A stretch of 36,292 bases of DNA from a virus. The stretch is from positions 1 to 36,292 of IMG/VR virus record IMGVR_UViG_3300044630_005472, one strand, 5' to 3'. The position numbers were made by a program, and so were the translations under genes. A model generated the notes under the pieces. The model saw only the letters and a list, made by a program, of their open reading frames with translations. It was not told the origin of the DNA and made no database searches. Every line of letters begins with the position of its first letter. The first letter of the stretch is position 1. Positions 4,423-30,054 of this stretch are shown here, piece after piece.

Positions 4423-5160
4423 CTAAAATGTCGCTAAGTAATTCCAGAGGTTGTCAATTAGTTTTATTTCTTTATACCCATAGGATTTTAAGATATCAAA
4501 TGATGAATCTACTGGATATGATAGTCCAAATTTTTCAGCCATCTCTTTTGAAATAACTTTATGATTTGATTCAAACAAAATTACTGGCTTAAACTTTTTA
4601 ATGGTTTGCTCTGCACCCATAAGTACAAGTGGTTCAAATCCTTCTACATCTATTTTAATATAATCGCAGGACTGCAAATTTAAACTATCAACTGTCACGG
4701 TTTCAATCTCTTCTCCACCATTTCCAATTTGAAGACCACCAAGGTTAAATCTTTTACCAGTTCCATACTCTATGTTTCTTCCAGCATTATCTCCATCTGA
4801 AACAGACTTGCTCATGCTTGATTTCATAGCAACATTTGCAACACCTTTATTAAATGTTTTAACATTATTAAAAGAATTTTTAGAAACATTGTGCTCAAGA
4901 AGGTTAAACATTTCTGACTGTGGCTCAAAACAATATATTTCGCAATCTGGATTTATATGTTTATATAATACTGTGTGGGATCCAGCATGTGACCCAATAT
5001 CTAAAATAGTTTTACTAGACCTTACAGTATCTTGTAAAAATTCCATTACAAAATCTTCTTCATAAATTTTTTCGTGAAACAATGTATCAGCAAAAGCCAT
5101 GTCGTTTTTGAAGTATGCCATGTATCCATACTTAGTGTTTTTTTCTATTAAATTATTCAC
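4423..5160 (-). CDS. FkbM family methyltransferase
   Basis: A 245-residue SAM-dependent O-methyltransferase of the FkbM type. The SAM-binding loop is LDIGSHAGSHT at 53-63, the acidic strand end is CFEP at 77-80, and the family hallmark KIDVEGFEPLVL lies at 169-180. FkbM enzymes methylate hydroxyls on sugars and natural products, which fits the adjacent glycosyltransferase and propeller genes. It starts at GTG behind an AGGA site and overlaps the end of ftsZ by 8 bases, so it is likely translated from the ftsZ message. The substrate is unknown. Confidence 0.85.
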   Translation of the reverse strand: MNNLIEKNTKYGYMAYFKNDMAFADTLFHEKIYEEDFVMEFLQDTVRSSKTILDIGSHAGSHTVLYKHINPDCEIYCFEPQSEMFNLLEHNVSKNSFNNVKTFNKGVANVAMKSSMSKSVSDGDNAGRNIEYGTGKRFNLGGLQIGNGGEEIETVTVDSLNLQSCDYIKIDVEGFEPLVLMGAEQTIKKFKPVILFESNHKVISKEMAEKFGLSYPVDSSFDILKSYGYKEIKLIDNLWNYLATF

Positions 5161-6091
5161 TTTTATTAAATCCTGTGGCTACTACTGTAACTAAAATTCC
5201 ATTTTCAAGATTCTCATCAATAGTTGTTCCAAAAATAATATCTGCATCCTCATGAGCTTTTTCAGAAACAAGTGAGGCTATCATGTTAACTTCAGACATT
5301 TTTATATCTCCAGATGATGCGATTGAAATAAGAACTCCAGTTGCACCATTTAAATCTATATCAAGAATTGGACTTGTAATTGCTTCGTTACCAGCAACTT
5401 CTGCACGGTTTTCTCCATCAGCGTATCCAATTCCCATAAATGCAGATCCAGCATCTTTCATTACTCTTTTAATATCTGCAAAGTCAATGTTAATTTGACC
5501 AGGAGTTGTGACTAAATCCGATATTGCTGCTATAGCCTTTAGCAGAATATTGTCTGCTTCTTTAAAGGCATCTTCCATTGATATATCTGAATCAAGCATA
5601 GAGATAAGGTTTTCATTAGGAACAACAATTAAAGTATCTACTTCCTTACTAAAATTATTAATTCCTTCTAAGGCATTTACCATACGCTTCTTGCCTTCAA
5701 ATGCAAAAGGTGTAGTAACAACGCCCACAGTCAACGCACCAGCTTTTTTGGCACAGTTAGCAACAATTGGTGCAGAGCCAGTTCCAGTTCCTCCACCCAT
5801 TCCAGCAGTTACAAAAACCACATCTGCTTCTGAAACTACTTCATTAATTTCATTTACACTGTCTTTTGCAGAAAGTCTTCCAATTTCAGGATTTGCTCCA
5901 GCTCCAAGACCTTTTGTTCTATCTCTGCCAATATCCACCTTTACATCTGCCAAACTTGGCAACAATGCTTGGGCATCAGTATTAATTGCAATAAATTCTA
6001 CTCCAGATAGTCCTGATCTAATCATTCCATCTACAGCGTTAACTCCACCACCACCGCAGCCAATTACTTTTATATCTATTAAATTACTCAT
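5153..6091 (-). CDS. ftsZ: FtsZ-like GTPase, bacterial type, lacking the C-terminal tail
   Basis: A 312-residue tubulin-superfamily GTPase close to bacterial FtsZ. The nucleotide site is complete: GCGGGGVNAV at 11-20, the signature GMGGGTGTGSAP at 97-108, and the P-site region VTTPFAFEGKKR at 125-136. The T7 loop NIDFADIKRVM at 201-211 keeps the two Asp residues (203, 206) that trigger GTP hydrolysis in the neighbouring subunit. The protein ends at VATGFNKSE, where cellular FtsZ begins its variable linker and conserved C-terminal peptide, so the tether to SepF or FtsA is missing. It is not PhuZ or TubZ, which are far more divergent. TATAAT sits six bases before the ATG. Host division control or phage filament formation is inferred. 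Confidence 0.95.
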   Translation of the reverse strand: MSNLIDIKVIGCGGGGVNAVDGMIRSGLSGVEFIAINTDAQALLPSLADVKVDIGRDRTKGLGAGANPEIGRLSAKDSVNEINEVVSEADVVFVTAGMGGGTGTGSAPIVANCAKKAGALTVGVVTTPFAFEGKKRMVNALEGINNFSKEVDTLIVVPNENLISMLDSDISMEDAFKEADNILLKAIAAISDLVTTPGQINIDFADIKRVMKDAGSAFMGIGYADGENRAEVAGNEAITSPILDIDLNGATGVLISIASSGDIKMSEVNMIASLVSEKAHEDADIIFGTTIDENLENGILVTVVATGFNKSE

Positions 6092-10014: not shown

Positions 10015-10188
10015 CTAGCCACCTGTGCTATAAAATCCTTTACCTTTAAATTGAATTCCACCCACACCAAAAACTCTTTTAATTGCACTTTCACAATCTG
10101 GACAAGTTTCTGGGTCAGGTTCGTTCATTCCCTTAACTAATTCTTTATTGTCTTCACATTTTTCACATGCATATACATATACTGGCAT
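10015..10188 (-). CDS. FmdB-like zinc-ribbon protein
   Basis: A 57-residue protein beginning MPVYVYACEKCEDNKEL, then ETCPDCES and a conserved-style end (RVFGVGGIQFKGKGFYSTGG). Two CxxC knuckles, with the VGGIQFKGKGFY tail, match the FmdB family of putative regulatory zinc ribbons found in bacteria and phages. It starts two bases after the HNH gene ends. It may regulate transcription or translation; no target is known. The family assignment is from motif memory, not from a search. Confidence 0.75.
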   Translation of the reverse strand: MPVYVYACEKCEDNKELVKGMNEPDPETCPDCESAIKRVFGVGGIQFKGKGFYSTGG

Positions 10189-10190
10189 AT

Positions 10191-10697
10191 TTATACTTTA
10201 CCAGATTTATTTAAAAAAGTCAAATCTCTTTTCCATTCAATTAAAAATTTTGTATGCTTGCTTCCATTGCAAGAGGAACAAGCTGAAACTAGGTTTCCTA
10301 TGCCATGAGTTCCCCCACGGCTTATTGGAATAATATGATCTATAGTAATTTTATCTAAAGATCCACAATAAAAACATGGAGAATTATACAACTTTATCAA
10401 TTCTTTTCTAAGTACTTTAAAGACTCCATTTTTATTCTTTTTAGCTCTACGACCATGATCCCTATTTCTATGTAATTCATGATTATTTAAATAATAAAGA
10501 TCTTTAACCTTTTTAATTTTTTGCCTGTTTTTTATACGATAATAGTAGTCATATTCTCTTTTTTTATCTGCTCTTGTGGCATTGTAAGAATTTACGCACT
10601 CTTTGCATTGACTTCTATATCCAGACTTGTTATGGCTATTTTTATAAAAAAAATCAATATGTTTTTCATTTTTACATTTAGGGCAAGTTTTATTCAC
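10191..10697 (-). CDS. HNH endonuclease
   Basis: A 168-residue nuclease. Residues 5-8 (CPKC) and CKEC at 36-39 form an N-terminal zinc finger; a basic helical linker follows; the C-terminal HNH domain has CFYCG at about 109-113, TIDHIIPISRGGTHGIGNL as the first His and beta-hairpin, and SACSSCNGSK with the second Cys pair. HNH enzymes nick or cut DNA through one metal ion. It starts at GTG behind AAAGGA and sits immediately after the terminator of the SSB transcription unit, the kind of place where free-standing homing endonucleases are found. Homing is inferred; a packaging role is less likely because the terminase genes are 6 kb away. Confidence 0.85.
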   Translation of the reverse strand: MNKTCPKCKNEKHIDFFYKNSHNKSGYRSQCKECVNSYNATRADKKREYDYYYRIKNRQKIKKVKDLYYLNNHELHRNRDHGRRAKKNKNGVFKVLRKELIKLYNSPCFYCGSLDKITIDHIIPISRGGTHGIGNLVSACSSCNGSKHTKFLIEWKRDLTFLNKSGKV

Positions 10698-10710: not shown

Positions 10711-10748
10711 TTTATAAAAGATACTCCCCCATGTTTTATGAGGGAGTA
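10711..10748 (-). terminator. Rho-independent terminator after ssb
   Basis: Minus-strand TACTCCC (10742-10748) pairs with GGGAGTA (10722-10728); an inner CAT/ATG pairing (10730-10732 with 10738-10740) extends the stem across one mismatch to a 5-base loop. TCTTTTAT follows on the minus strand. It lies 10 bases past the ssb stop and closes the WhiB-SSB unit. Confidence 0.7.
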
Positions 10749-10757
10749 CCAATTAAA

Positions 10758-11165
10758 CTAAGCCCAGGGATCAGGCTCTTCTGATACTGAAACTGTTGAG
10801 TTAGCAATGTTACTTGACTTGCTAAAGCTACCAGTTTTAATAGACATAGACTGACCAACATCAGTAGCATCAATCTCAAAGGCATTACCCTTTGTTCCAT
10901 CCTTGCGAACAAATTCACGATACTTTAACTTGCCATGAACAATAACCTTATTGCCCTTTGACAAAGTTCCAGCAACATTTTCTGCAAGTGTTCGCCAACA
11001 TACTACATCATAAAATGCAGTATCTCCATCTTTCCAAGATCCATCAGAATCCTGGAATCTTTCAGTACTTGCAACTCTTAGTTTTGCAAGAACTTTTCCA
11101 GCACCAAGATCCTTTACTTCTGGATCTTTTACTAGATTACCAACTACTGTAATTAGTGTAGCCAT
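10758..11165 (-). CDS. ssb: Single-stranded DNA-binding protein (OB fold)
   Basis: A 135-residue bacterial-type SSB. The OB domain covers residues 1-105, with the usual start (MATLITVVGNLVKDPEVK), the FYDVVCWRTLAENV strand-helix, the GNKVIVHGKLKYREF strand and a final EIDATDVGQS strand. A short Ser-rich linker leads to an acidic EEPDPWA end, which stands in for the DDDIPF tip that recruits partner proteins. It coats ssDNA during replication and recombination. A perfect AAGGAG site precedes the ATG. It is the last gene before a terminator in the unit led by the promoter at 12545-12573. Confidence 0.92.
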   Translation of the reverse strand: MATLITVVGNLVKDPEVKDLGAGKVLAKLRVASTERFQDSDGSWKDGDTAFYDVVCWRTLAENVAGTLSKGNKVIVHGKLKYREFVRKDGTKGNAFEIDATDVGQSMSIKTGSFSKSSNIANSTVSVSEEPDPWA

Positions 11166-11173
11166 TTTTCTCC

Positions 11174-11422
11174 TTAACCCTTTTCTGGGTGTGTTATGTC
11201 AAGAATTGGATCCAGGGCTACCTGTGCTCCAAGACTCTCCAGCATTGTTTTTACTTTCGTCATATACTTTATACAACGAAGTCTTTCTGAGTCAGTCATA
11301 TGTCTCCAATGACTCTCATAAAATTGTATCGTAAGGAAGTGGTTGTAGTCAAGTATATCTATATGAAAATCTGCAGGTGGTTTTATTGAATGTACCGCCT
11401 TCTTCATTTGCATGGTATACAT
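11174..11422 (-). CDS. 82-residue hypothetical protein between whiB and ssb
   Basis: A small alpha/beta protein starting MYTMQMKKAVHSIKPPADFH, with aromatic-rich strands (FLTIQFYESHW) and a long helix (SERLRCIKYMTKVKTMLESL). A longer frame from 11452 exists, but ATG 11422 has a GGAG site and a TAATG junction with whiB, so I use it. Unknown function. It lies inside the WhiB-SSB transcription unit and may be co-regulated with them. Confidence 0.65.
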   Translation of the reverse strand: MYTMQMKKAVHSIKPPADFHIDILDYNHFLTIQFYESHWRHMTDSERLRCIKYMTKVKTMLESLGAQVALDPILDITHPEKG

Positions 11423-11703
11423 TAATTTTTCTCCATAGTTATTCCAGACCACACATCAAACCAATCAGTTTTTTCCTTGTGGCTATTAAATTCTTTAGAA
11501 ATTTTTCCACCTTCTAAATATACTCCACCCCAGACACCCCATTCAGAATTGCTAACACCATAAGCTAGGCACTGTCTTTGTGCTGGACACTTTATACATA
11601 AAAGATCTACTCTTCTTGAAACTTCTCTATCTTCTTCATATTGATCAAAGAAAAGATTTGTATCCATATTAAGACATAAAGCTTTTTCATCAAACTTGTA
11701 CAT
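11422..11703 (-). CDS. WhiB-like iron-sulfur transcription regulator
   Basis: A 93-residue Wbl protein. The four cluster ligands are Cys10, Cys36, Cys39 and Cys45 (spacing C-x25-C-x2-C-x5-C), and the turn after them is GVWGG at 56-60, the family signature that contacts the sigma factor in host WhiB proteins. A basic tail that could touch DNA is short here. WhiB proteins occur only in Actinobacteria and their phages; phage copies such as TM4 WhiBTM4 alter host gene expression and block superinfection. It starts at ATG behind AAGGAAGGG and sits mid-operon with ssb. The target is not known. Confidence 0.93.
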   Translation of the reverse strand: MYKFDEKALCLNMDTNLFFDQYEEDREVSRRVDLLCIKCPAQRQCLAYGVSNSEWGVWGGVYLEGGKISKEFNSHKEKTDWFDVWSGITMEKN

Positions 11704-11917
11704 TTCCCTTCCTTAATATAGAGTCTGGAATATTCCATTCTCCACCATTATTTTCAAACACAATTTTCTTGTGCCACTTAGAATCAACAAAGGCTGCATT
11801 CTTTTTTAAGTTAGCATCTCCATCTTCCTCAAGAAAGACTACATTCCATCCTTCCCAGGTTAATGATGGATTGTTTTTTACTATTGATTCCATTTTATTT
11901 AAATCAGATACTTTCAT
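11690..11917 (-). CDS. 75-residue hypothetical protein
   Basis: A small Trp-rich protein (LTWEGWNVVFLEEDGD, SKWHKKIVF, GGEWNIP) with alternating hydrophobic residues that suggest a small beta-barrel, preceded by a short helix. It overlaps the membrane-protein gene upstream and whiB downstream, each by 14 bases, so it is co-translated with both. Function unknown. Confidence 0.6.
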   Translation of the reverse strand: MKVSDLNKMESIVKNNPSLTWEGWNVVFLEEDGDANLKKNAAFVDSKWHKKIVFENNGGEWNIPDSILRKGNVQV

Positions 11918-12167
11918 TTATAGATCTTTCTGTACTAATAATTACTGTTAAAATTGTAACAATAAATTGAAGAATAAACATTAATATAAACCCTATTTGA
12001 TTAGTTGCAATACCATACCAAAGTGTTACTACCTGATTTATCATCCAAAAGAAAATCATGGTTACTATTTTTGCAACACTTGGTTTTAGTGTTACTGCAA
12101 CAAACATTGATAAATAAAACAATGCATATGATAAAAAAACTACTAAAGACCAATTTGTTAGACTCAT
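11904..12167 (-). CDS. Small three-helix membrane protein
   Basis: An 87-residue, very hydrophobic protein with three probable membrane helices at about 6-26, 30-50 and 56-78, short loops and a charged C-terminus (STERSINESI). It starts one base before the stop of the upstream gene and overlaps the next by 14 bases. Located in the WhiB-SSB early-type unit, it could change the host envelope (for example superinfection exclusion), but that is only a guess. Confidence 0.65.
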   Translation of the reverse strand: MSLTNWSLVVFLSYALFYLSMFVAVTLKPSVAKIVTMIFFWMINQVVTLWYGIATNQIGFILMFILQFIVTILTVIISTERSINESI

Positions 12168-12518
12168 TTAATACCTAAAAATTCCCATCTCAACGCCTTC
12201 TTGATGCTCCATGTATGTTGCAAACTTTGACAAAGGCTCTTTTGGTAAACTAAAGTATGCATAGTATGTTACATGCTCAACATTTTCTCTAACCCATTGC
12301 TGATTTATTTTAGAAAAAGAAACTTTAAAACCTTTTTGCTTTAAATAGTTTTCTGCTGAATTGCAGAACGCTGCAGTAAAGTTGTTAATCTTATGAGGTC
12401 CAAGACTCCAAACCTGTATTTGACTATTATCATTTGGAATTGACAGAGCAACTGACATAGCCCTCATAAATATTTCATAATCAGAGAACTCCTTAGTTCC
12501 CTCAACTACAATAACCAT
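12168..12518 (-). CDS. Hypothetical phage protein, first gene of the WhiB-SSB unit
   Basis: A 116-residue alpha/beta protein. The start MVIVVEGTKEFSDYEIFMRA, then SLGPHKINNFTAAFCN, looks like a small Rossmann-type nucleotide-binding fold; SLOG-like proteins begin in a similar way, but the match is too weak to assign. It follows a consensus promoter by about 25 bases and an AAAGGA site, so it is probably well expressed. The C-terminal half is aromatic and basic. Function unknown. Confidence 0.65.
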   Translation of the reverse strand: MVIVVEGTKEFSDYEIFMRAMSVALSIPNDNSQIQVWSLGPHKINNFTAAFCNSAENYLKQKGFKVSFSKINQQWVRENVEHVTYYAYFSLPKEPLSKFATYMEHQEGVEMGIFRY

Positions 12519-12544
12519 AAAAAATCCTTTTCTATTGAAATACT

Positions 12545-12573
12545 ATTATACATTTTTATAAGATAAATGTCAA
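12545..12573 (-). promoter_or_regulatory. Perfect sigma-70-type consensus promoter
   Basis: On the minus strand TTGACA (12568-12573) and TATAAT (12545-12550) are both exact consensus hexamers, separated by exactly 17 bases (12551-12567). It lies in the 61-base gap before the 116-residue gene and drives the unit that includes whiB and ssb. A match of this quality is very unlikely by chance even in AT-rich DNA and suggests strong early transcription by the host housekeeping sigma factor. Confidence 0.88.
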
Positions 12574-12579
12574 CTTATA

Positions 12580-12942
12580 TTAGCTATTTATGTTATCAAT
12601 TATTGAAATAAGATTATTCACTTCTTTTTCTGAAAGGTCAAAAACATCAACTCTTTCAGCATTTTCATTTAAAATCTTTCCATCTTCACTAATACTAGCT
12701 TTATAAAGAATATTATCTATTACCCAGTATGCACTGTTATCTTGAATGGCTACCCTTACAGTACCTTCGTCTAGAATTTTTGATAGTTGACTTTTTCTAG
12801 AAAATGGATTAAAGCTTATAGAAAAATCTTCAGATCTTTTATTTTCAAACAGTGTAAAGATTAATACAAAAAGATTTATTGCAAATGAGTTTATTGCAAT
12901 AATGCATCCTGATAACCTTTTTAAGGGAGATAAATTTTGCAT
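12580..12942 (-). CDS. Single-pass membrane protein
   Basis: A 120-residue protein with one hydrophobic segment at about residues 10-32 near the N-terminus, then a soluble domain. The domain has a beta-like core (GTVRVAIQDNSAYWVIDNILYKA) and a C-terminal acidic helix (FDLSEKEVNNLISIIDNINS). The N-terminus is basic, so the soluble domain is probably outside the cytoplasm. It starts at ATG behind GGAGG 11 bases after the 484-residue protein gene. Similar small membrane proteins occur in actinophages without known function. Confidence 0.65.
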   Translation of the reverse strand: MQNLSPLKRLSGCIIAINSFAINLFVLIFTLFENKRSEDFSISFNPFSRKSQLSKILDEGTVRVAIQDNSAYWVIDNILYKASISEDGKILNENAERVDVFDLSEKEVNNLISIIDNINS

Positions 12943-14422: not shown

Positions 14423-14782
14423 TTATCTTTGGTCATAATGTGCTAACAATGTTTCAAGAAAAAATCTTTCATCATCAGTAAAAGTGTTAATATTTTCTTT
14501 TATAGACTCTACTTGTTCTGGAGTAACTCCAACAATTGTTTGTCCTTCAGTAAAAACTATGTCTATAACATCTTTCATCCACAACTGACTAGCCATTTCT
14601 CCAACGGCTTCGTAATGTGCATAATATAGTTCTGGATATATTTCTTTACATTTTGGAGTTACTTTGTATGTAAACTGATCTGATATAGAATCATACCCCA
14701 TAATTTCCATAGCACCTAATTCAATAAGGTACTCAATTATTTCCGAAAGTTCTTGTTCAGATACATCTTCATTATCTTCCAT
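14423..14782 (-). CDS. 119-residue acidic protein, winged-helix-like
   Basis: An acidic protein beginning [20 protein letters not shown]; the first 60 residues (helix, helix, then GYDSISDQFTYKVTPKCKEI as a beta-wing) resemble a winged-helix domain of the type that ends with a TYKVTPKG wing. The C-terminal half is helical with a DDERFFLETLLAHYDQR tail. It overlaps the end of the IMPDH-like gene by 11 bases. A DNA-binding or adaptor role is possible but unproven. Confidence 0.6.
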   Translation of the reverse strand: MEDNEDVSEQELSEIIEYLIELGAMEIMGYDSISDQFTYKVTPKCKEIYPELYYAHYEAVGEMASQLWMKDVIDIVFTEGQTIVGVTPEQVESIKENINTFTDDERFFLETLLAHYDQR

Positions 14783-15803
14783 GTGGCATAGACTCCTTTA
14801 CTGAAAGTGGGGAAACTCTTGTATACATAGATTCTTGATATAAATTGCAAAGAAAGTCAACTCCACTATAAGAGCATCCGCTACCAAGACCACCCTTTAT
14901 GTCTTTAATAATATCTTTTACAGATCCCTTATATGGAATCATTGTAGATATTCCTTCTGCAACTGCAATATCTTTATCTTTATTAGCTTCTTTACTAGCC
15001 ATACCTCTAAATGTTTTAAACTTCTTATCTCCATTAAAATATAAAGATCCTGGAGACTCATCAGTACCAGCTAGCATTGATCCAAGCATTACAGAATCTG
15101 CCCCTGCTGCAAATGCTTTAACCATGTCCCCAGTATTTCTAATTCCACCATCTGCTACAATTCCAGCATTTAAGTTAAACTTATCTTTTGCTTCTCGCAC
15201 GTTTATAATTGAAGATAGTGTTGGAATACCGTGACCAGATACAATCCTTGTTGTACACATGCTGCCACCTCCAATGCCAACTCTGACTGAATCAGCACCT
15301 GCAATATCTAAGGCAATGTAGCCTTCTACGGTAGCAACATTTCCTGCCATAACGTGTACATTATCACCAACTAGTTTCTTTAATCTTATTGTTGCATCAA
15401 TTGCCATTTTACTATGACCATTTGCAGTGTCAATTAGTAGCATTGAAGCCCCTGCAGAAATAAGTTTTTCTACATGCTCTTCAATAAATGTGCTTGATAA
15501 TGCTGCACCAACATTTAAACCAAGACTATTATGACTATGAACTTCTTCAACCATTCTTATTTGATTTTTTGCAGACATAAATCTATGAATAATTCCAATG
15601 CCACCAGATTCAGCAATAGCAATTGCCATATCTTTTTCACAAACTGTATCCATTGGGGATGCAATTATTGGTAGATCTAGCCAGGTATGCCCACCTATAT
15701 TCATCTTAAAATCAACAGATGATCTGCTTACAACTTCTGAATATTGTGGAACCATTAAAATATCATCAAAGCAAATATCATTTTTTGCTAAGTATTCTTT
15801 CAT
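14772..15803 (-). CDS. IMP dehydrogenase / GMP reductase family enzyme without CBS domains
   Basis: About 343 residues, an (alpha/beta)8-barrel of the IMPDH/GMPR family. Counting from the upstream ATG 15815, the loop [15 protein letters not shown] (183-197) carries the catalytic Cys187; [10 protein letters not shown] (221-230) binds the phosphate; FRGMAS (269-274) and PYKG (294-297) follow. CBS domains are absent, and the flap between FRGMAS and AEG is only about 12 residues, with no Arg-Tyr pair as in IMPDH. That favours GMP reductase (GMP to IMP with NADPH) over IMPDH. I prefer ATG 15803, which gives an ATGA overlap with the dehydratase gene. It would shift host purine pools. Confidence 0.85.
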
Positions 15804-16813
15804 AAGCTTAGCCATTCTGGATGTCTAAGAGTCCACTCAACCGTCTTTCTAATAGATTCTTCTAATGGCATTGGGGCAATCCATCCCGTATCAGATATCT
15901 TTTTACCATCTAGTGCATATCTTAAGTCATGTCCTGGACGTGAGGAATGGAAATCTTCTAGTTCGTACTTCAAAGGCTTTCCAACTGCAGAAGCAATCAT
16001 TTGAGCCATTTCTAAGTTGTCAACTTCTCTCTCACCAACAATGTGAAACTTTGCTGGAACTTCAGATTCTCCATACGCTGGAAAATTTTGCTTAAGGACA
16101 TGAAGAAGTCCATCTGCTTGGTTACGAGCATGAAGGTAAAAACGACTTCCAAGTTCTCCTTCTGGAGATGCATGAATCTTCATTGTCTCACCATTAAGAA
16201 CTTTCTTAATTACCATTGGCATAAATTTTTCAGGATCTTGAGTTTCACCAATAATATTCATTGTGTTAGTAATTGCAACTGGAACCCCATAGGTTCTCCA
16301 GTATGAGAATGCAATACTTTCTTGTGCTGCTTTAGAAGCAGAGTATGGGTTGCTTGGAAAATATTGATCTACCCACTCCTTATGAGCATGTCCTTTTGGA
16401 GCTGGACCATAAACTTCATCAGTAGAAATATGCAAAAACTTTTCTGGCTTTGCAACTCTTGCCCAGTCAAGTAAGTTACAAATTAAAGACACGTTGTTCA
16501 AGATAAAAGGAGTTGGCTCTTCTATGCTTCTATCAACATGGCTTTCACTTGCAACATTAATAACATAATCAATTTTTCCAAATGCATGAGATGTTACTGA
16601 AGAAATTGGAGCAGTTAGATCTGTCTTGATAACCTTGATACGACTATATGAGTCTGGCAAGTCATCACATGCTACATTTATTCTGTCTGTCAAACCTTTG
16701 TGTGTAAATGTTGTTGGACAAACTAAAAACCAATCTGTGTTTACCAACAAGTGCCTAAGCACATGACTACCAACAAAACCACTTGCACCAGTTAAAAGAA
16801 CTCTCTTACTCAT
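15800..16813 (-). CDS. Extended SDR, RmlB-like dTDP-glucose 4,6-dehydratase
   Basis: A 337-residue extended short-chain dehydrogenase. The NAD site is TGASGFVGSH at 8-17; SHVDRSI (91-97), the catalytic STDEVYG (130-136) and NPYSASKAA (155-163, Tyr157 and Lys161) are all in the order and spacing of RmlB, including the Thr-Asp-Glu triad that removes water from the 4-keto sugar. RmlB makes dTDP-4-keto-6-deoxyglucose, the precursor of rhamnose and other deoxysugars. It may feed glycan decoration together with the glycosyl genes at 2.7-5.2 kb, although a different nucleotide-sugar cannot be excluded. ATGA overlap with the next gene indicates coupling. Confidence 0.85.
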   Translation of the reverse strand: MSKRVLLTGASGFVGSHVLRHLLVNTDWFLVCPTTFTHKGLTDRINVACDDLPDSYSRIKVIKTDLTAPISSVTSHAFGKIDYVINVASESHVDRSIEEPTPFILNNVSLICNLLDWARVAKPEKFLHISTDEVYGPAPKGHAHKEWVDQYFPSNPYSASKAAQESIAFSYWRTYGVPVAITNTMNIIGETQDPEKFMPMVIKKVLNGETMKIHASPEGELGSRFYLHARNQADGLLHVLKQNFPAYGESEVPAKFHIVGEREVDNLEMAQMIASAVGKPLKYELEDFHSSRPGHDLRYALDGKKISDTGWIAPMPLEESIRKTVEWTLRHPEWLSL

Positions 16814-23608: not shown

Positions 23609-26600
23609 TTATAATACTTCCTTCAATGTAATAGTTCCTTCTTTTGTTTCACCAAAATTAATCTTTGCTACTTTTCCAGGCTGGCACTTCATGTATCCAG
23701 TAGAGAACATGGTTGGGAACACCATTGCAGCAGTCATCTCTCTTGAACTGTTAGCAACAATCATATTAGCCATTCTCTTTCCAGCTTTAGTAACTCTAGG
23801 GGTAAATGATAGCACAAAGTGTTCATCATTTGCAAACGGTATCTGCTTGTAGTTTAAAAACTTGATAAGCGGATTTTCTTTATGCTCTTTTAATTCATCA
23901 ATTGGAATTGCTTCAGAAATTCTATTTGCACCTGCAAGAATTAAATAAGTTCTTCCTGGCTCAATTTTAGTTTCTTCATCATCAAAGATTCCAATTACTC
24001 CAGTAGAGTCCATAATTTCTACTCTTGACCAGCCTTTACCACGTTTAATATTTTTTGCAATTCCAAGCAGGACAAACACACCCTGTTCATCAAAGTCTTC
24101 TACGAGATCTATATATGCATAGTAGTGCTGTGGAACACTTGTGTTTAGCTCTGGAAGATTAAGATACTCATAAAGGTTATCTCTAACCTTTGCTTCATCT
24201 CTTGGATTATCTTCAAATGTTAGTGCACCAATAAGATCTAATGCTTCTACTGCTCTTGAATTAATTCCACTACCTTTTTGTATAGCAAATTTCTTAAACT
24301 GCTCTTTAGACTCAAAAGGTCTTCCTGCAATAATCTTACCTGCAACTCCTTCAGAAAGCCATTTAATGGCAGCAAGTCCAAACCTAATTCCCTTACCTTC
24401 AATCTTAAAGTCTGAGTCAGATTCATTAATGTGAGGAAGCTTTAGTGACAGCCCCATACGCTTAGATTCAATTAGATACTCAGTACGAGTGTCGCTATCC
24501 TTTTCACTCTTTAGCAATGAAAACATAAACTCAATTGGATAGTGATACTTTAACCAGGCAGTCCAGTAAGATAGTGTTGAGTATGCAACAGCGTGGGACT
24601 TGTTAAAAGAGTATCCAGCATGTGCTTCAAAGTCGTGCCACAAATCTTTTGCTCTAATACCAATATGTTTTTCTGCATTGTTAACAAACTTATCTTTAAA
24701 AATGTCAAACTCTTTAGCATCTTTTTTCTTACCAATAATTTTTCTAACCTTGTCAGCCTCAACCATGGTCATTCCACCAAGAACTACACATGCTTGCATA
24801 ACCTGCTCTTGATACAAAACACATCCATAAGTATCTTTTAAATAATCATTCATAGAGGGGTGAATATATTCAACCATTTCTCTACCATGCTTACGAGCAA
24901 TATAAGACTTTCCAATTGTATTCATTGCACCTGGACGAACAAGTGCATTAGAAGCAACCAGTTCGTCAAAATTACTGACTCTCATTTTTACCAATAGGTT
25001 AGTATATGGAGTTGCTTCACACTGAAATACACCCTTTGTACGACCCTCAGAAAGCATCTCAAAGACTTTCTTATCATTTAGAGGTATCTGCTTAAGATTT
25101 ATTTCTGTGCCGTGACGTTCTTTAATTGTTTTAATAGTCTGATCAATTACCGTCAAAGTTTTAAGACCCAGAACATCAAGCTTAATTAGACCAATCTCTG
25201 CAGCCTCTTCCATATCTACTGCAACAACTGGAATTCTTTCTTTACTTCCTGGTGCAATTCGTGTTTCAAGAGGAGCATATTTAAAAATTGAATCTTTTGC
25301 AGTAACTACACCTGCAGCATGAATACCAGTTCCACGGATTCTTCCACGAAGTTGCTCTCCATACTTAACAATCTCAGGATACTTCATCCTAAACCATTGA
25401 GCATTAGTTGACCTCGTAAAATCATCCCAGCTATCTACTCCCTTAAGAACTTTATTAACATCATTAAGAGGAATGTTAAATGCTCTGGCAACATCTCTTA
25501 CAACACCCTTATCTTTAAATGCAAGGAATGTAGCGATAGATGCAACATTTTTATATTCACGTTCAAGGTATGCTTTTACTTCATCTCTTCTATCATCTGC
25601 AATATCAGAATCAATATCAGGGAAATCATCTCTGTCTGGATTAATAAAACGGAAAAACAAAAGACCATATTCAATTGGATCAATTTCTGTAATGCCCAGG
25701 GCATAGCAAACAAGAGATCCTGCAGCAGAGCCACGACCTGGACCTACCATGATGCCTTGCTCTTTTGCCCAATTTAACATATTATGAACAACTAGAAAAT
25801 AGGGTGAAAAGTTTTTGCTTTTAATAATATCAAGTTCTAGATTTAATCTATCTAGGTATTCTTTGTTTTCAGACAATCCTTTTAAAACTAGACCTCTAGA
25901 GGCAAGTGCAAGAAGTTCTTCATTAGGGTTTTCTACCTTTATTGGAAGAAGATCTAAATTACTTTTAATAGTATATTCTTCTACCTTGTTTGAAATCTCA
26001 ACAGTATTTTCATAAATGTCTTCACGCTTAATACCTTGCTGTTGCATGGCAGATTTTATTTCTTCATATGAAAGCAAATGAATGTCAAAACTTCTAAAAG
26101 ACATCATCCTATCTTCTCCATATAAATAGTCAAGTCTTTTCATAGGGTCTTCAATCTTTGAAGCCTTGTCAAAGGTGGATTCTTTATTAAGCTTTGCATG
26201 TGTATTTAAAAGTAGCATCATTTCCTGAATTACCTTTTGACTCTTATCAGAGTGGTGGCAATCAGGGGTTACTACTGGCTTTACATCATAAATGTCAGCC
26301 ATCTCAAGAAGTTCTTTATTTAATTCAGCAGAGTTGTGTGGCATAACTTCTACATAAAAATCATCACCAAAAGTTTCTTTAAACCATGTCATATGCTTTT
26401 TTGCAACAGCATATTCTTTATGTTCAATTGCCTTTGCAAGAAGCCCACTCATACATGCTGATAAAACTATTACACCTTCTTTATACTTTGATAGTATTTC
26501 AAAGTCAATCCTTGGCTTTCTATAATATCCTTCAGTCCAAGCAAGTTCATTAAGTTTGTTTAGATTTTCCAAACCCTTGTCATTTTTTGCAAGAAGAACG

Positions 26601-26878
26601 ATATGGTTGTACACCATGTCTAATGGATCTGTTCTTTCAGATTTATCTCTATTATCAAATCTATCTGCGGTTATATATCCTTCAATTCCTAAAATTGGCT
26701 TAATGCCATTTGCCTTTGCAGCCCTGTACATAGGTCTGTGACCAGACAGAACGCCATGGTCAGTTATTGCAATTGCGGATAGTCCAATTTCAGAAGCACG
26801 TTTTGCATACTCTTCTGGAGTTGCAACACCATCCATAAGTGAGTAGTGTGTATGAACGTGTAGTGGAACGTAAGTCAT
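23609..26878 (-). CDS. dnaE: DNA polymerase III alpha subunit (DnaE type)
   Basis: A 1089-residue C-family replicase. The PHP domain is at the start: HVHTHYS (7-13), TDHGVLSGH (39-47), GIEGYI (64-69) and TPDCHHS (204-210) keep the metal-site residues of an active proofreading PHP. The polymerase active site is PDIDSD (420-425) with Asp568 in GLIKLDVLG, and the GPGRGSAAGSL nucleotide-binding loop is at 379-389. A tandem HhH and an OB-type C-terminal region follow; the protein is slightly shorter than host DnaE. It follows the gp32-like gene across a strong hairpin. The phage thus carries its own replicase. Confidence 0.95.
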   Translation of the reverse strand: MTYVPLHVHTHYSLMDGVATPEEYAKRASEIGLSAIAITDHGVLSGHRPMYRAAKANGIKPILGIEGYITADRFDNRDKSERTDPLDMVYNHIVLLAKNDKGLENLNKLNELAWTEGYYRKPRIDFEILSKYKEGVIVLSACMSGLLAKAIEHKEYAVAKKHMTWFKETFGDDFYVEVMPHNSAELNKELLEMADIYDVKPVVTPDCHHSDKSQKVIQEMMLLLNTHAKLNKESTFDKASKIEDPMKRLDYLYGEDRMMSFRSFDIHLLSYEEIKSAMQQQGIKREDIYENTVEISNKVEEYTIKSNLDLLPIKVENPNEELLALASRGLVLKGLSENKEYLDRLNLELDIIKSKNFSPYFLVVHNMLNWAKEQGIMVGPGRGSAAGSLVCYALGITEIDPIEYGLLFFRFINPDRDDFPDIDSDIADDRRDEVKAYLEREYKNVASIATFLAFKDKGVVRDVARAFNIPLNDVNKVLKGVDSWDDFTRSTNAQWFRMKYPEIVKYGEQLRGRIRGTGIHAAGVVTAKDSIFKYAPLETRIAPGSKERIPVVAVDMEEAAEIGLIKLDVLGLKTLTVIDQTIKTIKERHGTEINLKQIPLNDKKVFEMLSEGRTKGVFQCEATPYTNLLVKMRVSNFDELVASNALVRPGAMNTIGKSYIARKHGREMVEYIHPSMNDYLKDTYGCVLYQEQVMQACVVLGGMTMVEADKVRKIIGKKKDAKEFDIFKDKFVNNAEKHIGIRAKDLWHDFEAHAGYSFNKSHAVAYSTLSYWTAWLKYHYPIEFMFSLLKSEKDSDTRTEYLIESKRMGLSLKLPHINESDSDFKIEGKGIRFGLAAIKWLSEGVAGKIIAGRPFESKEQFKKFAIQKGSGINSRAVEALDLIGALTFEDNPRDEAKVRDNLYEYLNLPELNTSVPQHYYAYIDLVEDFDEQGVFVLLGIAKNIKRGKGWSRVEIMDSTGVIGIFDDEETKIEPGRTYLILAGANRISEAIPIDELKEHKENPLIKFLNYKQIPFANDEHFVLSFTPRVTKAGKRMANMIVANSSREMTAAMVFPTMFSTGYMKCQPGKVAKINFGETKEGTITLKEVL

Positions 26879-27621: not shown

Positions 27622-28575
27622 CTATTGTAACACATTTGCTACTAGATCGTCAAATTGTGACACAAACTTTTTTAAATCTTCATCCGATAAATCTGATACA
27701 TCTTTTACTGATTCTGGAAGATTTGCGTTGATTGCACTTGACCCAAGAATGTTTGATAGTTTTTTAGCCATCTCTCTTCCAGCATCATCGTTATCTCCTA
27801 AAATAATTACATTATTAAAATACTGTTTTAAAAGTTCTCTCTGTTTACCTGACACAGAGGCTCCCAAAGTGGCTACAGCATGTGCTCCTACCTGCTCTAG
27901 GCGTATTGCATCAAAGGATGACTCTACAACAAAAACCTTATCAAATCTTTTTGCTCTAAATAAGTTAAACATTGTTTTTGCTTTTGGAAGTCCTGGAGTA
28001 TTCTTAAACTCTTTACCTTCTACAGATCTTCCAACGAATCCTAAGCACATTCCGTCTGGGGAGTGAACTGGTATTGTAACCATGTCTTGAGCCTCAGAGT
28101 ATCCAAGTAGATACCTTTCAACGCTTTGCTTTGTTATTCCTCTACCTAGATAGTACTGAGCAGCCCTTTGTGAATTAAGTGCAGAGGTATTTAGTTTTTT
28201 AACTAGTTCAATATCAAATTCAACAAAGTCTGGCTTCTTATTAAGCTTTGCTTCAATGCTTTCAATAAAGTTAACATCCTCTGATTTAGAGTCAATCATT
28301 CTTGCAGATTCAAAATATGATCTTCTTGTAACATGCATAATTACTTCAATAAGTGAATGAGATTCTTGGCATCCAAAGCAGTAAAACAATCCGCTTTCTT
28401 TTGATATTTCTGCAGCAGGAGATCTATAATTATTGTGATATGGACAAAAGATTATAAAGTCAGACTCTACTTCATAGACTACATCAATACCTGCAGCTAG
28501 CAGACTTCTTCTGACTTGATCTTCTGAGTAGAAGTAGCCATCACTGGCTTGTTTTTGTCTATCCCTGATATACAC
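27622..28575 (-). CDS. DnaG-type primase
   Basis: A 317-residue DnaG-like primase. The zinc domain has CPYH (44-47) and CFGC (66-69). The TOPRIM active site has VVESSFDAI (Glu218) and GDNDDAGREMA (Asp261, Asp263-264), the metal-binding acid triad. The N-terminal FYSEDQVRRSLLAAGIDVVYE block is family-typical, so the start must lie upstream of it; GTG 28575 after AGGAAAGAG is the only candidate, giving a 79-base overlap with the upstream gene. The helicase-binding C-terminus of cellular DnaG is mostly absent. It makes RNA primers for the phage DnaE. The promoter of the next gene overlaps its end. Confidence 0.93.
   Translation of the reverse strand: MYIRDRQKQASDGYFYSEDQVRRSLLAAGIDVVYEVESDFIIFCPYHNNYRSPAAEISKESGLFYCFGCQESHSLIEVIMHVTRRSYFESARMIDSKSEDVNFIESIEAKLNKKPDFVEFDIELVKKLNTSALNSQRAAQYYLGRGITKQSVERYLLGYSEAQDMVTIPVHSPDGMCLGFVGRSVEGKEFKNTPGLPKAKTMFNLFRAKRFDKVFVVESSFDAIRLEQVGAHAVATLGASVSGKQRELLKQYFNNVIILGDNDDAGREMAKKLSNILGSSAINANLPESVKDVSDLSDEDLKKFVSQFDDLVANVLQ
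27624..27653 (-). promoter_or_regulatory. Strong promoter of the gp32-like gene
   Basis: The minus strand carries TTGACG (27648-27653) and TACAAT (27624-27629) 18 bases apart. TG before the -10 (TGTTACAAT) adds an extended -10 element. Each hexamer matches consensus at 5 of 6 positions. The site overlaps the end of the primase gene, so it would boost transcription of the ssDNA-binding protein and dnaE independently. Confidence 0.6.
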
Positions 28576-28808
28576 TCTGCCGTTCTCTTTCCTACATATA
28601 CGCCATATATTGATATTTCAAAATTAAATGTCTTACCATTATAACTAATTGTGAAGTCTGTGTCAATATCATATCTTGGAACATACCCATCAGACTTCAT
28701 TCCGTCAACAATCATATTATAATATTGCTCTTTAAGTCTTATGATATGGGAATCATCATAAATTTCACCATCAAGGCTAAATCTTTTTATTGACTTATGA
28801 GCGTACAT
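28497..28808 (-). CDS. 103-residue hypothetical protein between helicase and primase
   Basis: The frame is open up to 28883, but that would overlap the helicase gene by 44 bases, so ATG 28808 (MYAHKSIKRFSLDGEIYDDS) is a better start. TTG 28838, right after the helicase stop, is a third option. TGATATAAT (an extended -10) lies seven bases before ATG 28808, hinting at a leaderless start. The protein is Tyr-rich and beta-like (YVPRYDIDTDFTISYNGKTF) with an acidic tail. It overlaps the primase by 79 bases. Function unknown; position suggests replication. Confidence 0.55.
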   Translation of the reverse strand: MYAHKSIKRFSLDGEIYDDSHIIRLKEQYYNMIVDGMKSDGYVPRYDIDTDFTISYNGKTFNFEISIYGVYVGKRTAECISGIDKNKPVMATSTQKIKSEEVC

Positions 28809-28815
28809 ATCATTA

Positions 28816-28824
28816 ATTATATCA
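28816..28824 (-). promoter_or_regulatory. Extended -10 promoter upstream of the primase pair
   Basis: TGATATAAT on the minus strand, an exact extended -10 match, lies seven bases before ATG 28808 in the short gap after the helicase stop. No -35 is evident. It may drive the small protein and primase as a nearly leaderless transcript. Confidence 0.4.
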
Positions 28825-28839
28825 ATGAAATTAACCAAT

Positions 28840-30054
28840 TTACTCAAAATCTTTGTATATAAAGCGACCTGAGTCAAAATCAATATCTACCATAAATTCT
28901 CCACAGAATCCGTGACGGTTTTTTCTAAAGATACATTCAAGAATTGTGCTTCCAGTAGCACGACCTAAAGCCAAAACCCAGTCAGCATCATAAGCTAACT
29001 GCTTTGACCAGGCTACCTGACCAAGTGAAGGTACGCTGTTCATGTCTGTAGCATCATCAGGGGTAGCAGAGGCAATAGCAACAATTGGAACTTGAGAAGA
29101 AATTGCAAGAACTTTTAATTCTCTAGAAATATTTTTAATCTTTACAACTTCATTATCATTTCCTTGATTTGAATTCATTAACTGAATGTAGTCAACAAAC
29201 ACTACATCTGGGGAATACTGATCAATTTTTCCTCTAATAACAGAAGGGGATACATCTGCAAGACCATCATTAGAAATGATATAAAATGGTGGCTTATCTT
29301 TTAAATTTTGCTTAGCCCAATTTTCAAAGCCTTCAATATCAATCATACCTGCACTCAGTTTTCTATGTGAAAAATATCCTTCAGCCATAATTGTGTAGAC
29401 ACGATTTCTTACTTCTTTCTCTGTCATTTCAAGAGAAACTATTAACGGCTTCTTGCCAGCTTTCCACGCTTGTACAGCCATAAAAATAGCGAGCCAAGAC
29501 TTACCAATGGCAGGATAAGCAAGAAGTATACCAAACTGACCAGGAGCAATACCACCAGGTAAATAGTTATCAAAACCTGCGAGGTTTGTTCTAACTCCAT
29601 GTATGCCTTTTTCACTTAACTCCTTAATGTGTATAAAGTGTGCAGAAGCATCTTCTACATCTGTTGCATCAATATCCCTTACATCAGAACTGATTCTTTT
29701 AAGATCTGATGTTTTTGAAATTATTGAATTAAGAGCTTCAATTGGCTGATGCTCATTTAATTGTTTTGCACTAGTCATTAGTGCATTTCTTAAGTGGTCT
29801 TCAAGAAATTGAGTTCTTAACTCTTCTAGATGATGTTTTGTTGTACCAATTTCTCCTACAGGATGAAAGTCTCTAAACTTTTCTACCAATAACGACTGTG
29901 TTGGAACTGTAGAATTTTGCTCATAGTAATTTTTTACAAAATCCCAAACGTCTTTATGAGTTCTAAACAAAGTATCTGGATTTGCCTGAAACAGCACATG
30001 AATTTGCTTATCATTTAAAACCGCAGATATTACCTTTGCCTCTAAATCAGACAT
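28840..30054 (-). CDS. DnaB-type replicative helicase
   Basis: A 404-residue hexameric helicase. The N-terminal domain (1-110) is helical. The RecA-like C-terminal domain begins with GVRTNLAGFDNYLPGG, then Walker A AYPAIGKSWLAIF at 179-191 (the first Gly of the P-loop is Ala, as in several phage DnaB proteins), an SLEMTEKEV motif (208-216) with the catalytic Glu, Walker B PDVVFVDYIQLM (282-293), and a final beta-finger region. It unwinds forks 5' to 3' and recruits primase, whose gene is close. Its ATG overlaps the upstream 102-residue gene as TAATG, so they are co-translated. Confidence 0.92.
   Translation of the reverse strand: MSDLEAKVISAVLNDKQIHVLFQANPDTLFRTHKDVWDFVKNYYEQNSTVPTQSLLVEKFRDFHPVGEIGTTKHHLEELRTQFLEDHLRNALMTSAKQLNEHQPIEALNSIISKTSDLKRISSDVRDIDATDVEDASAHFIHIKELSEKGIHGVRTNLAGFDNYLPGGIAPGQFGILLAYPAIGKSWLAIFMAVQAWKAGKKPLIVSLEMTEKEVRNRVYTIMAEGYFSHRKLSAGMIDIEGFENWAKQNLKDKPPFYIISNDGLADVSPSVIRGKIDQYSPDVVFVDYIQLMNSNQGNDNEVVKIKNISRELKVLAISSQVPIVAIASATPDDATDMNSVPSLGQVAWSKQLAYDADWVLALGRATGSTILECIFRKNRHGFCGEFMVDIDFDSGRFIYKDFE

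Follow-up and report, generated by a model that had tools for sequence, protein, structure and literature searches.

Does the DNA between positions 10,711 and 12,573 of the IMG/VR virus record IMGVR_UViG_3300044630_005472 form a transcription unit of its own, and with which sigma factor would it be read? The record, analysed here at its full length of 36,292 bases (the window), is classed as linear and is perhaps a fragment, and its minus strand carries nearly all of its genes. An original prediction had proposed for this region a self-contained transcription unit, running from an exact TTGACA-N17-TATAAT promoter through six genes to a hairpin, and the three elements are indeed found at the positions given for them. 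On the grounds of sequence comparison, the promoter-genes-terminator unit is real and kept by selection in numerous related actinophages. Our preferred explanation, to which we assign a probability of about 75%, is a conserved phage operon with a consensus promoter, six packed genes and an intrinsic terminator, which would be transcribed with the host sigma factor and whose WhiB-like protein would act on the host. Its parts, preceded by the upstream gene gp120, are the following:

12580-12942, minus strand: gp120, outside the unit in the window and inside it in sister phages
12545-12573, minus strand: promoter TTGACA-N17-TATAAT, an exact 12/12 match with 17-nucleotide spacing, intergenic
12525-12532, minus strand: ribosome-binding-like GAAAAGGA before the first gene, read from the sequence, with AAAAGG kept in most relatives
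12168-12518, minus strand: gp116, the first gene, for a SLOG/YpsA-like Rossmannoid protein (AlphaFold2 model with pLDDT 93.9, and fold matches)
11904-12167, minus strand: gp87, a small hydrophobic membrane protein according to hydropathy
11690-11917, minus strand: gp75, the gene directly before whiB (weak phrog_10869 match, E 0.0011)
11422-11703, minus strand: WhiB-like protein of 93 amino acids (Pfam Whib, 46.5 bits for a cut-off of 23.6, 5e-12)
11174-11422, minus strand: gp82, 82 amino acids, the gene directly after whiB, a conserved neighbour (model pLDDT 90)
10758-11165, minus strand: SSB (Pfam SSB PF00436, 84.8 bits for a cut-off of 26, 5e-24; phrog_44, 1.5e-27)
10720-10750, minus strand: intrinsic terminator with a 13-pair stem, a 5-nucleotide loop and a TTTTAT tail, -18.9 kcal/mol

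The promoter, in an intergenic stretch of 61 bases (12519-12579), starts immediately behind the gp120 stop region, and 26 bases separate the end of its -10 hexamer from the first start codon, with GAAAAGGA in between; from the spacing, a transcript start is predicted near 12538. A match of this kind had been called rare in any genome, which does not hold for this phage group: the window contains a second one (two observed for 0.03 expected in 200 simulations with its dinucleotide make-up), and 17 of the 20 records searched have at least one. Moreover, an exact match was rejected as sufficient proof, since other exact or near-exact sites follow protein sequence. In sister phages such as L037, L039 and L045, gp120 is tandemly duplicated ahead of gp116 and the second copy holds an exact promoter match, which spells DNKAYWMYN, and in some relatives an 11/12 match before ssb spells LDPILDIKYND of the preceding gene. 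In the same line, a loose scan of the window gave no enrichment in promoter-like sites (62 vs 61.2 ± 6.4 in shuffles), together with 10 terminator-like sites vs 6.9 ± 2.8. Both the coding location of the other exact matches of the group and this lack of enrichment are what would be expected if the consensus were a chance match in AT-rich DNA. The functional case rests for this reason on conservation and not on the scan, and comparison was chosen as its basis because several exact matches merely follow protein sequence.

Relatives were gathered with WhiB, SSB and gp116 as queries, and gene families were mapped on every locus. Keeping one locus per contig gave 90 contigs including the window, of which five (L004, L007, L008, L031 and L079) were left out of the promoter comparison because gp116 fell outside the piece, leaving 85, whereas 14 distant loci (L165-L178) were read separately. 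The gene order of the unit is kept across relatives. In 82 of the 85 contigs (44 of them with 12/12), the interval from the upstream gene's end to gp116 contains, outside the coding sequence of gp120, a promoter with at least 11/12 matches, located on the gp116 side in 43 and before gp120 in 39. The 26 distinct sequences of the gp116 side all have the same -35 hexamer and differ in the spacer, with a mean frequency of the major base of 1.00 at the -35 and 0.987 at the -10 in comparison with 0.725 at spacer positions 1-13 and 0.656 upstream; the 28 distinct sequences before gp120 gave 0.994, 0.917 and 0.549 for the -35, the -10 and the spacer, respectively. The -35 is more constant than the -10 even though the scoring, which required A and T at two -10 positions, favoured the latter. 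As for the background, at least 11/12 matches were reached in 0.18% of simulated 90-nucleotide stretches (100,000 runs) and upstream of 23 of 701 other open reading frames (ORFs), 12 of these 23 being the coding match before ssb. Even among the distant relatives L165-L177, whose first gene is 32-51% identical, 12 of 13 keep a promoter of at least 11/12 before that gene. The intergenic placement, the invariant hexamers around a changing spacer, the background rates and the recurrence at other positions in sister clades led to the rejection of a chance match, which we regard as highly improbable. With 12 of 12 matches, 17 nucleotides of spacing and conservation, the site has the form of a sigma-70/sigma-A promoter (both hexamers, 16-18 nucleotides apart), and consensus-like promoters are also found ahead of other gene blocks in these phages. 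In five of the distant loci (L165, L166, L170, L171 and L172), the -10 of an exact or 11/12 promoter ends 5 bases before the start codon of the gp116 relative, which predicts leaderless messages for this gene.

The other end of the unit is equally recognizable. The hairpin terminator announced after ssb is there, with its 13-pair stem and a T-rich tail, and a hairpin occurs in 50 of 51 distinct 60-base 3' regions, vs 50 of 1020 shuffles meeting the same rule. L161 lacks it and three others (L045, L073 and L164) have hairpins that are unlikely to be terminators, leaving about 47 convincing cases. The stems are so diverse (CCCCC-GAAA-GGGGG, CCCC-UUCG-GGGG, GAGGG...CCCTC) that it is structure rather than sequence that is conserved, and the T runs are weaker in several relatives (TTTCAATATT). 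Three further features lie beyond the terminator:

10191-10697, minus strand: HNH endonuclease gene (Pfam HNH, 1e-13), between the terminator and the next promoter
10195-10223, minus strand: TTGACT-N17-TAAAGT, the next-unit promoter, contained in the 3' end of HNH
10015-10188, minus strand: gp57, first gene of the next unit, zinc-ribbon-like by eye from its cysteines

Of 22 relatives examined, four (L017, L019, L020 and L026) share with the window an HNH gene at exactly this junction, and the distance separating ssb from the following gene is 571-573 bases with it vs 61-76 without it. Most close relatives lack the gene, and in most of them the promoter of the next unit comes directly behind the terminator. 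The carriers share one terminator stem (GGTACTCCC...GGGGGAGTATC) that is absent from other relatives, so that the window terminator either arrived along with HNH or was exchanged at the same time. In the window, the final HNH codons spell the promoter of the next unit. The stretch ahead of gp57 occurs in 26 distinct versions, of which 23 have an exact TTGACA, one (the window) has TTGACT and two have none. Relatives with HNH and those lacking it have homologous sites of the form TTGACA-N17-TAxxxT, and the distance of 5-6 bases from the -10 to the start codon predicts leaderless messages for gp57 in the window's group. Because the HNH gene has no recognised promoter of its own, some read-through of the terminator is suggested. 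The Streptomyces phages Lululemon (L283 732-1172) and Daubenski (L284 732-1172) carry an annotated HNH gene that separates gp75 from whiB, so that the operon seems to attract HNH genes elsewhere too.

Part of the unit is also present in cultured phages. Matches to the WhiB protein come from 139 phage records, most of them of Streptomyces (127), with 9 from Rhodococcus and 3 from Mycobacterium, and 13 of these loci were fetched for comparison of gene neighbours. In 12 of the 13, gp75 stands beside WhiB, and gp82 does so in 11 (all but Grayson and Sparky), the triad gp75-WhiB-gp82 being complete in 11 of the 12 sampled Streptomyces and Rhodococcus phages (Sparky left out). Stanwilliamsviridae (Circinus, Comrade, Wofford and others) and the Rhodococcus phages Grayson and Trina resemble the window in this gp75-WhiB-gp82 core, with WhiB 40-48% identical, and differ from it in that no SSB, SLOG-like or gp120 gene was detected in the stretches fetched; in Grayson gp82 was not detected either, and Mycobacterium phage Sparky keeps WhiB only, with no TTGACA site before it. 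The DnaE-type polymerase of the window (23609-26878) is about 51% identical to those of Streptomyces phages such as BillNye. On the other hand, a TTGACA-N18-TAxxAT site precedes gp75 in 6 of 6 sampled Loccivirinae, unlike the Boydwoodruffvirinae-type phages (four sampled), which have no TTGACA site. Since the promoter before gp75 varies in this way among cultured phages, the gene core is older than the present promoter arrangement.

Several observations weigh against the operon as we read it. In sister phages the promoter stands one gene farther upstream, and the borders of the unit shift with it. A site of at least 11/12 is absent from the expected interval in 3 of the 85 contigs (8/12 in L069 and L070, 10/12 in L072), L070 having an exact match farther upstream, in or near the upstream gene, and nine of the 43 contigs with a gp116-side site have it about 187 nucleotides before gp116, plus another before gp120. 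A scan of the window found no terminator-like site between gp120 and the promoter, so transcription from upstream may run in. Finally, TTGACA is missing before gp75 in both Rhodococcus phages and in four sampled Streptomyces phages that belong to one subgroup; the same four carry a hairpin at that place. What stands of a self-contained unit is therefore the conserved tract from promoter to terminator, and not its isolation, given the lack of an upstream terminator, the movable start and the suggested HNH-linked read-through.

With regard to the polymerase that reads the unit, no match to Sigma70_r2 or Sigma70_r4 over the cut-off was found in 10 group records of up to 101 kb, all of them possibly fragments, which makes use of the host primary sigma factor likely, as the original prediction had it. 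The search for a single-subunit RNA polymerase found none, but its controls were equally silent and it proves nothing. In the three promoter classes examined, namely those of this unit, of the next unit and of an intragenic site ahead of the primase, TTGACA varies less than the -10. The last of these is the second exact TTGACA-N17-TATAAT of the window (28638-28666, minus strand), inside the ORF 28497-28883 and ahead of the primase-DnaE block. It was read at first as a mere protein-coding match, a view dropped after a wobble test on 46 distinct relatives, with 28 fully conserved non-Met residues around the site, where the queries were peptide patterns that allowed all codons. Third-base invariance was confined to four codons (ATT for I, GAC for D, ACA for T and AAT for N), which include three of the four hexamer wobble positions (chance of about 0.005, calculated by hand and ignoring relatedness); GAC makes up 27% of the Asp codons in the window. 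The site is probably a real promoter hidden in a gene.

Such synonymous constraint on a second consensus site before the primase-DnaE block could also mean that the operon is real but belongs to a middle, replication phase, with WhiB and SSB made along with the primase-DnaE-RecA block and a strong promoter giving much SSB. SSB is a replication protein, and PMC8612146 describes, for several phage clusters, SSB and replication domains in the neighbourhood of whiB, the SSB domains often within 5 kb of it. However, a consensus host-type promoter by itself needs no phage activator, and none of the 10 records yielded a phage sigma factor, so that we consider a replication-phase unit rather unlikely. 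Early timing and a takeover effect, which the original prediction had proposed, are plausible for the operon that we favour. The literature search found nothing describing this operon or its timing, subscription papers being mostly outside that search.

As for the proteins, the six co-directional ORFs of the minus strand overlap or almost touch their neighbours in the window, which suggests coupled translation of adjacent genes. Judged by their profiles, the identities of WhiB and SSB are genuine, as had been proposed. In WhiB, residues C10, C36, C39 and C45 (C-X2-C-X5-C) and the GVWGG turn are invariant in 30 of 30 sequences; its profile matches M. tuberculosis WhiB1 (5oay) at 6e-11, and its nearest solved relatives are WhiB1, WhiB7 and WhiB3, so that a [4Fe-4S] cluster and binding to the primary sigma factor would be expected. 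SSB has an acidic tail ending in EEPDPWA in the window, and the tails of 18 relatives vary, several of them without acidic residues. The gp87 product, whose family is present in 157 loci and has no match in Pfam or PHROGs, had been described as a three-helix membrane protein; its strong hydrophobicity fits a membrane protein, but three spans are seen by eye only and the hydropathy segments overlap, so that the number is not sharp. The gp116 model retrieved YspA/cpYpsA SLOG and DUF2493 proteins with Foldseek in BFVD (E about 5e-4 to 1e-3) and nothing under 1e-3 in PDB. Against YpsA of B. subtilis (2nx2), it aligned over 107 residues with Z 8.5 and a root-mean-square deviation of 2.8, the only chain with Z of at least 8 among 999 aligned. 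By sequence, the Pfam search of gp116 (35 members scanned) gave no SLOG family, and the names from Pfam and PDB were unrelated and at chance level. According to its model, gp116 has a SLOG Rossmannoid fold and may bind a nucleotide or other ligand. No fold match under 1e-3 and no family match were obtained for gp82.

In our explanation, the RNA polymerase of the host, carrying the primary sigma factor, would start at about 12538 and copy the six genes as one message, with no need of a phage factor, so that the unit would be active once the DNA enters the cell, and transcription would mostly end at the hairpin after ssb. SSB would serve replication. WhiB would dock on the primary sigma factor of the host, close to the part that binds the -35, and shift or block host WhiB-dependent transcription, such as that of septation genes, as reported for the WhiB of phage TM4, which inhibits or represses host whiB2 and has a superinfection-exclusion effect (PMC8612146). 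Like TM4 and other actinophage Wbl proteins, the protein studied here is phage-encoded and has the four cysteines and the GVWGG turn; its gene context differs from that of TM4, a cluster K phage of Mycobacterium.

The same docking opens the possibility that WhiB activates or represses its own unit through sigma A region 4, making it a feedback switch instead of a constitutive operon. Wbl proteins including WhiB7 bind SigA region 4, a GVWGG loop is described, and WhiB7 is described as activating at AT-rich DNA just upstream of the -35 (PMC6282962); here, E54 and W55 before GVWGG are kept, close to the EPW triplet named in that source, and the DNA upstream of the promoter is AT-rich. Against such control, nothing is conserved upstream of the -35 except upstream-gene coding and a short AAG, and no AT-hook is seen by eye in WhiB. 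Full consensus promoters, in addition, rarely need an activator. Self-control by WhiB appears to us improbable. Because region 4 reads the -35 and is the Wbl docking site, and TTGACA is fixed above the -10, a more speculative proposal can be made by analogy, in which phage WhiB bound to sigma A would tilt the holoenzyme to full TTGACA promoters over host promoters with a weak -35, and WhiB, the SLOG-like protein and FtsZ would together stop host division. We regard it as a long shot.

Among described systems, the SigA-like promoters of mycobacteriophage Adephagia resemble the one reported here in their intergenic -35 and -10 hexamers 17-18 bp apart and in a predicted leaderless gene, and differ in carrying an inverted repeat, with none described at the early start region in the accessible text (PMC11373665). 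Freshwater actinophages with whiB are well known, according to three articles (PMC10202952; PMC6802176; PMC10914622), and the own features of this operon are the next promoter borne by HNH and the movable start. The DNA of the unit found no match in phage records, nor did gp116, either with the window's member or with one distant member, and Rfam gave no match in the window. The host is left without a name because both scans of genome contigs, with the gp116 alignment and with the epimerase (15800-16813), gave no relative.

Other genes of the window deserve mention. At 5153-6091 (minus strand) lies a true FtsZ (Pfam Tubulin 1e-45, FtsZ_C 4e-30; best solved relative an FtsZ, 4e-107; in PHROGs, only a weak PhuZ label) of 312 amino acids that stops at the end of the globular core without a C-terminal tail, and that is about 58% identical over 292 residues to the core of an M. 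tuberculosis FtsZ. FtsZ_C exceeds the cut-off in 8 of 12 group records, with open frames of 312-338 amino acids. Such a protein, being without the tail, might interfere with cell division in the host. At 14772-16813 (minus strand), next to the large terminase gene, are genes for a nucleotide-sugar epimerase and a dehydrogenase, which may serve to alter glycans of the DNA, the virion or the host. Short direct repeats with 24-base spacing (1177-1447) occupy a more G+C-rich part of a 525-amino-acid ORF (538-2115) that has no family match.

Altogether, promoters of actinobacterial phages are poorly defined, and here comparison alone was enough to define the promoters and terminators of several operons in a widespread group of uncultured phages. 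The presence of the gp75-WhiB-gp82 core in cultured Streptomyces phages makes the function of a phage WhiB testable with laboratory strains, and an HNH gene that carries the promoter of the next operon in its tail indicates how a mobile gene can become lodged between two operons and leave both intact.

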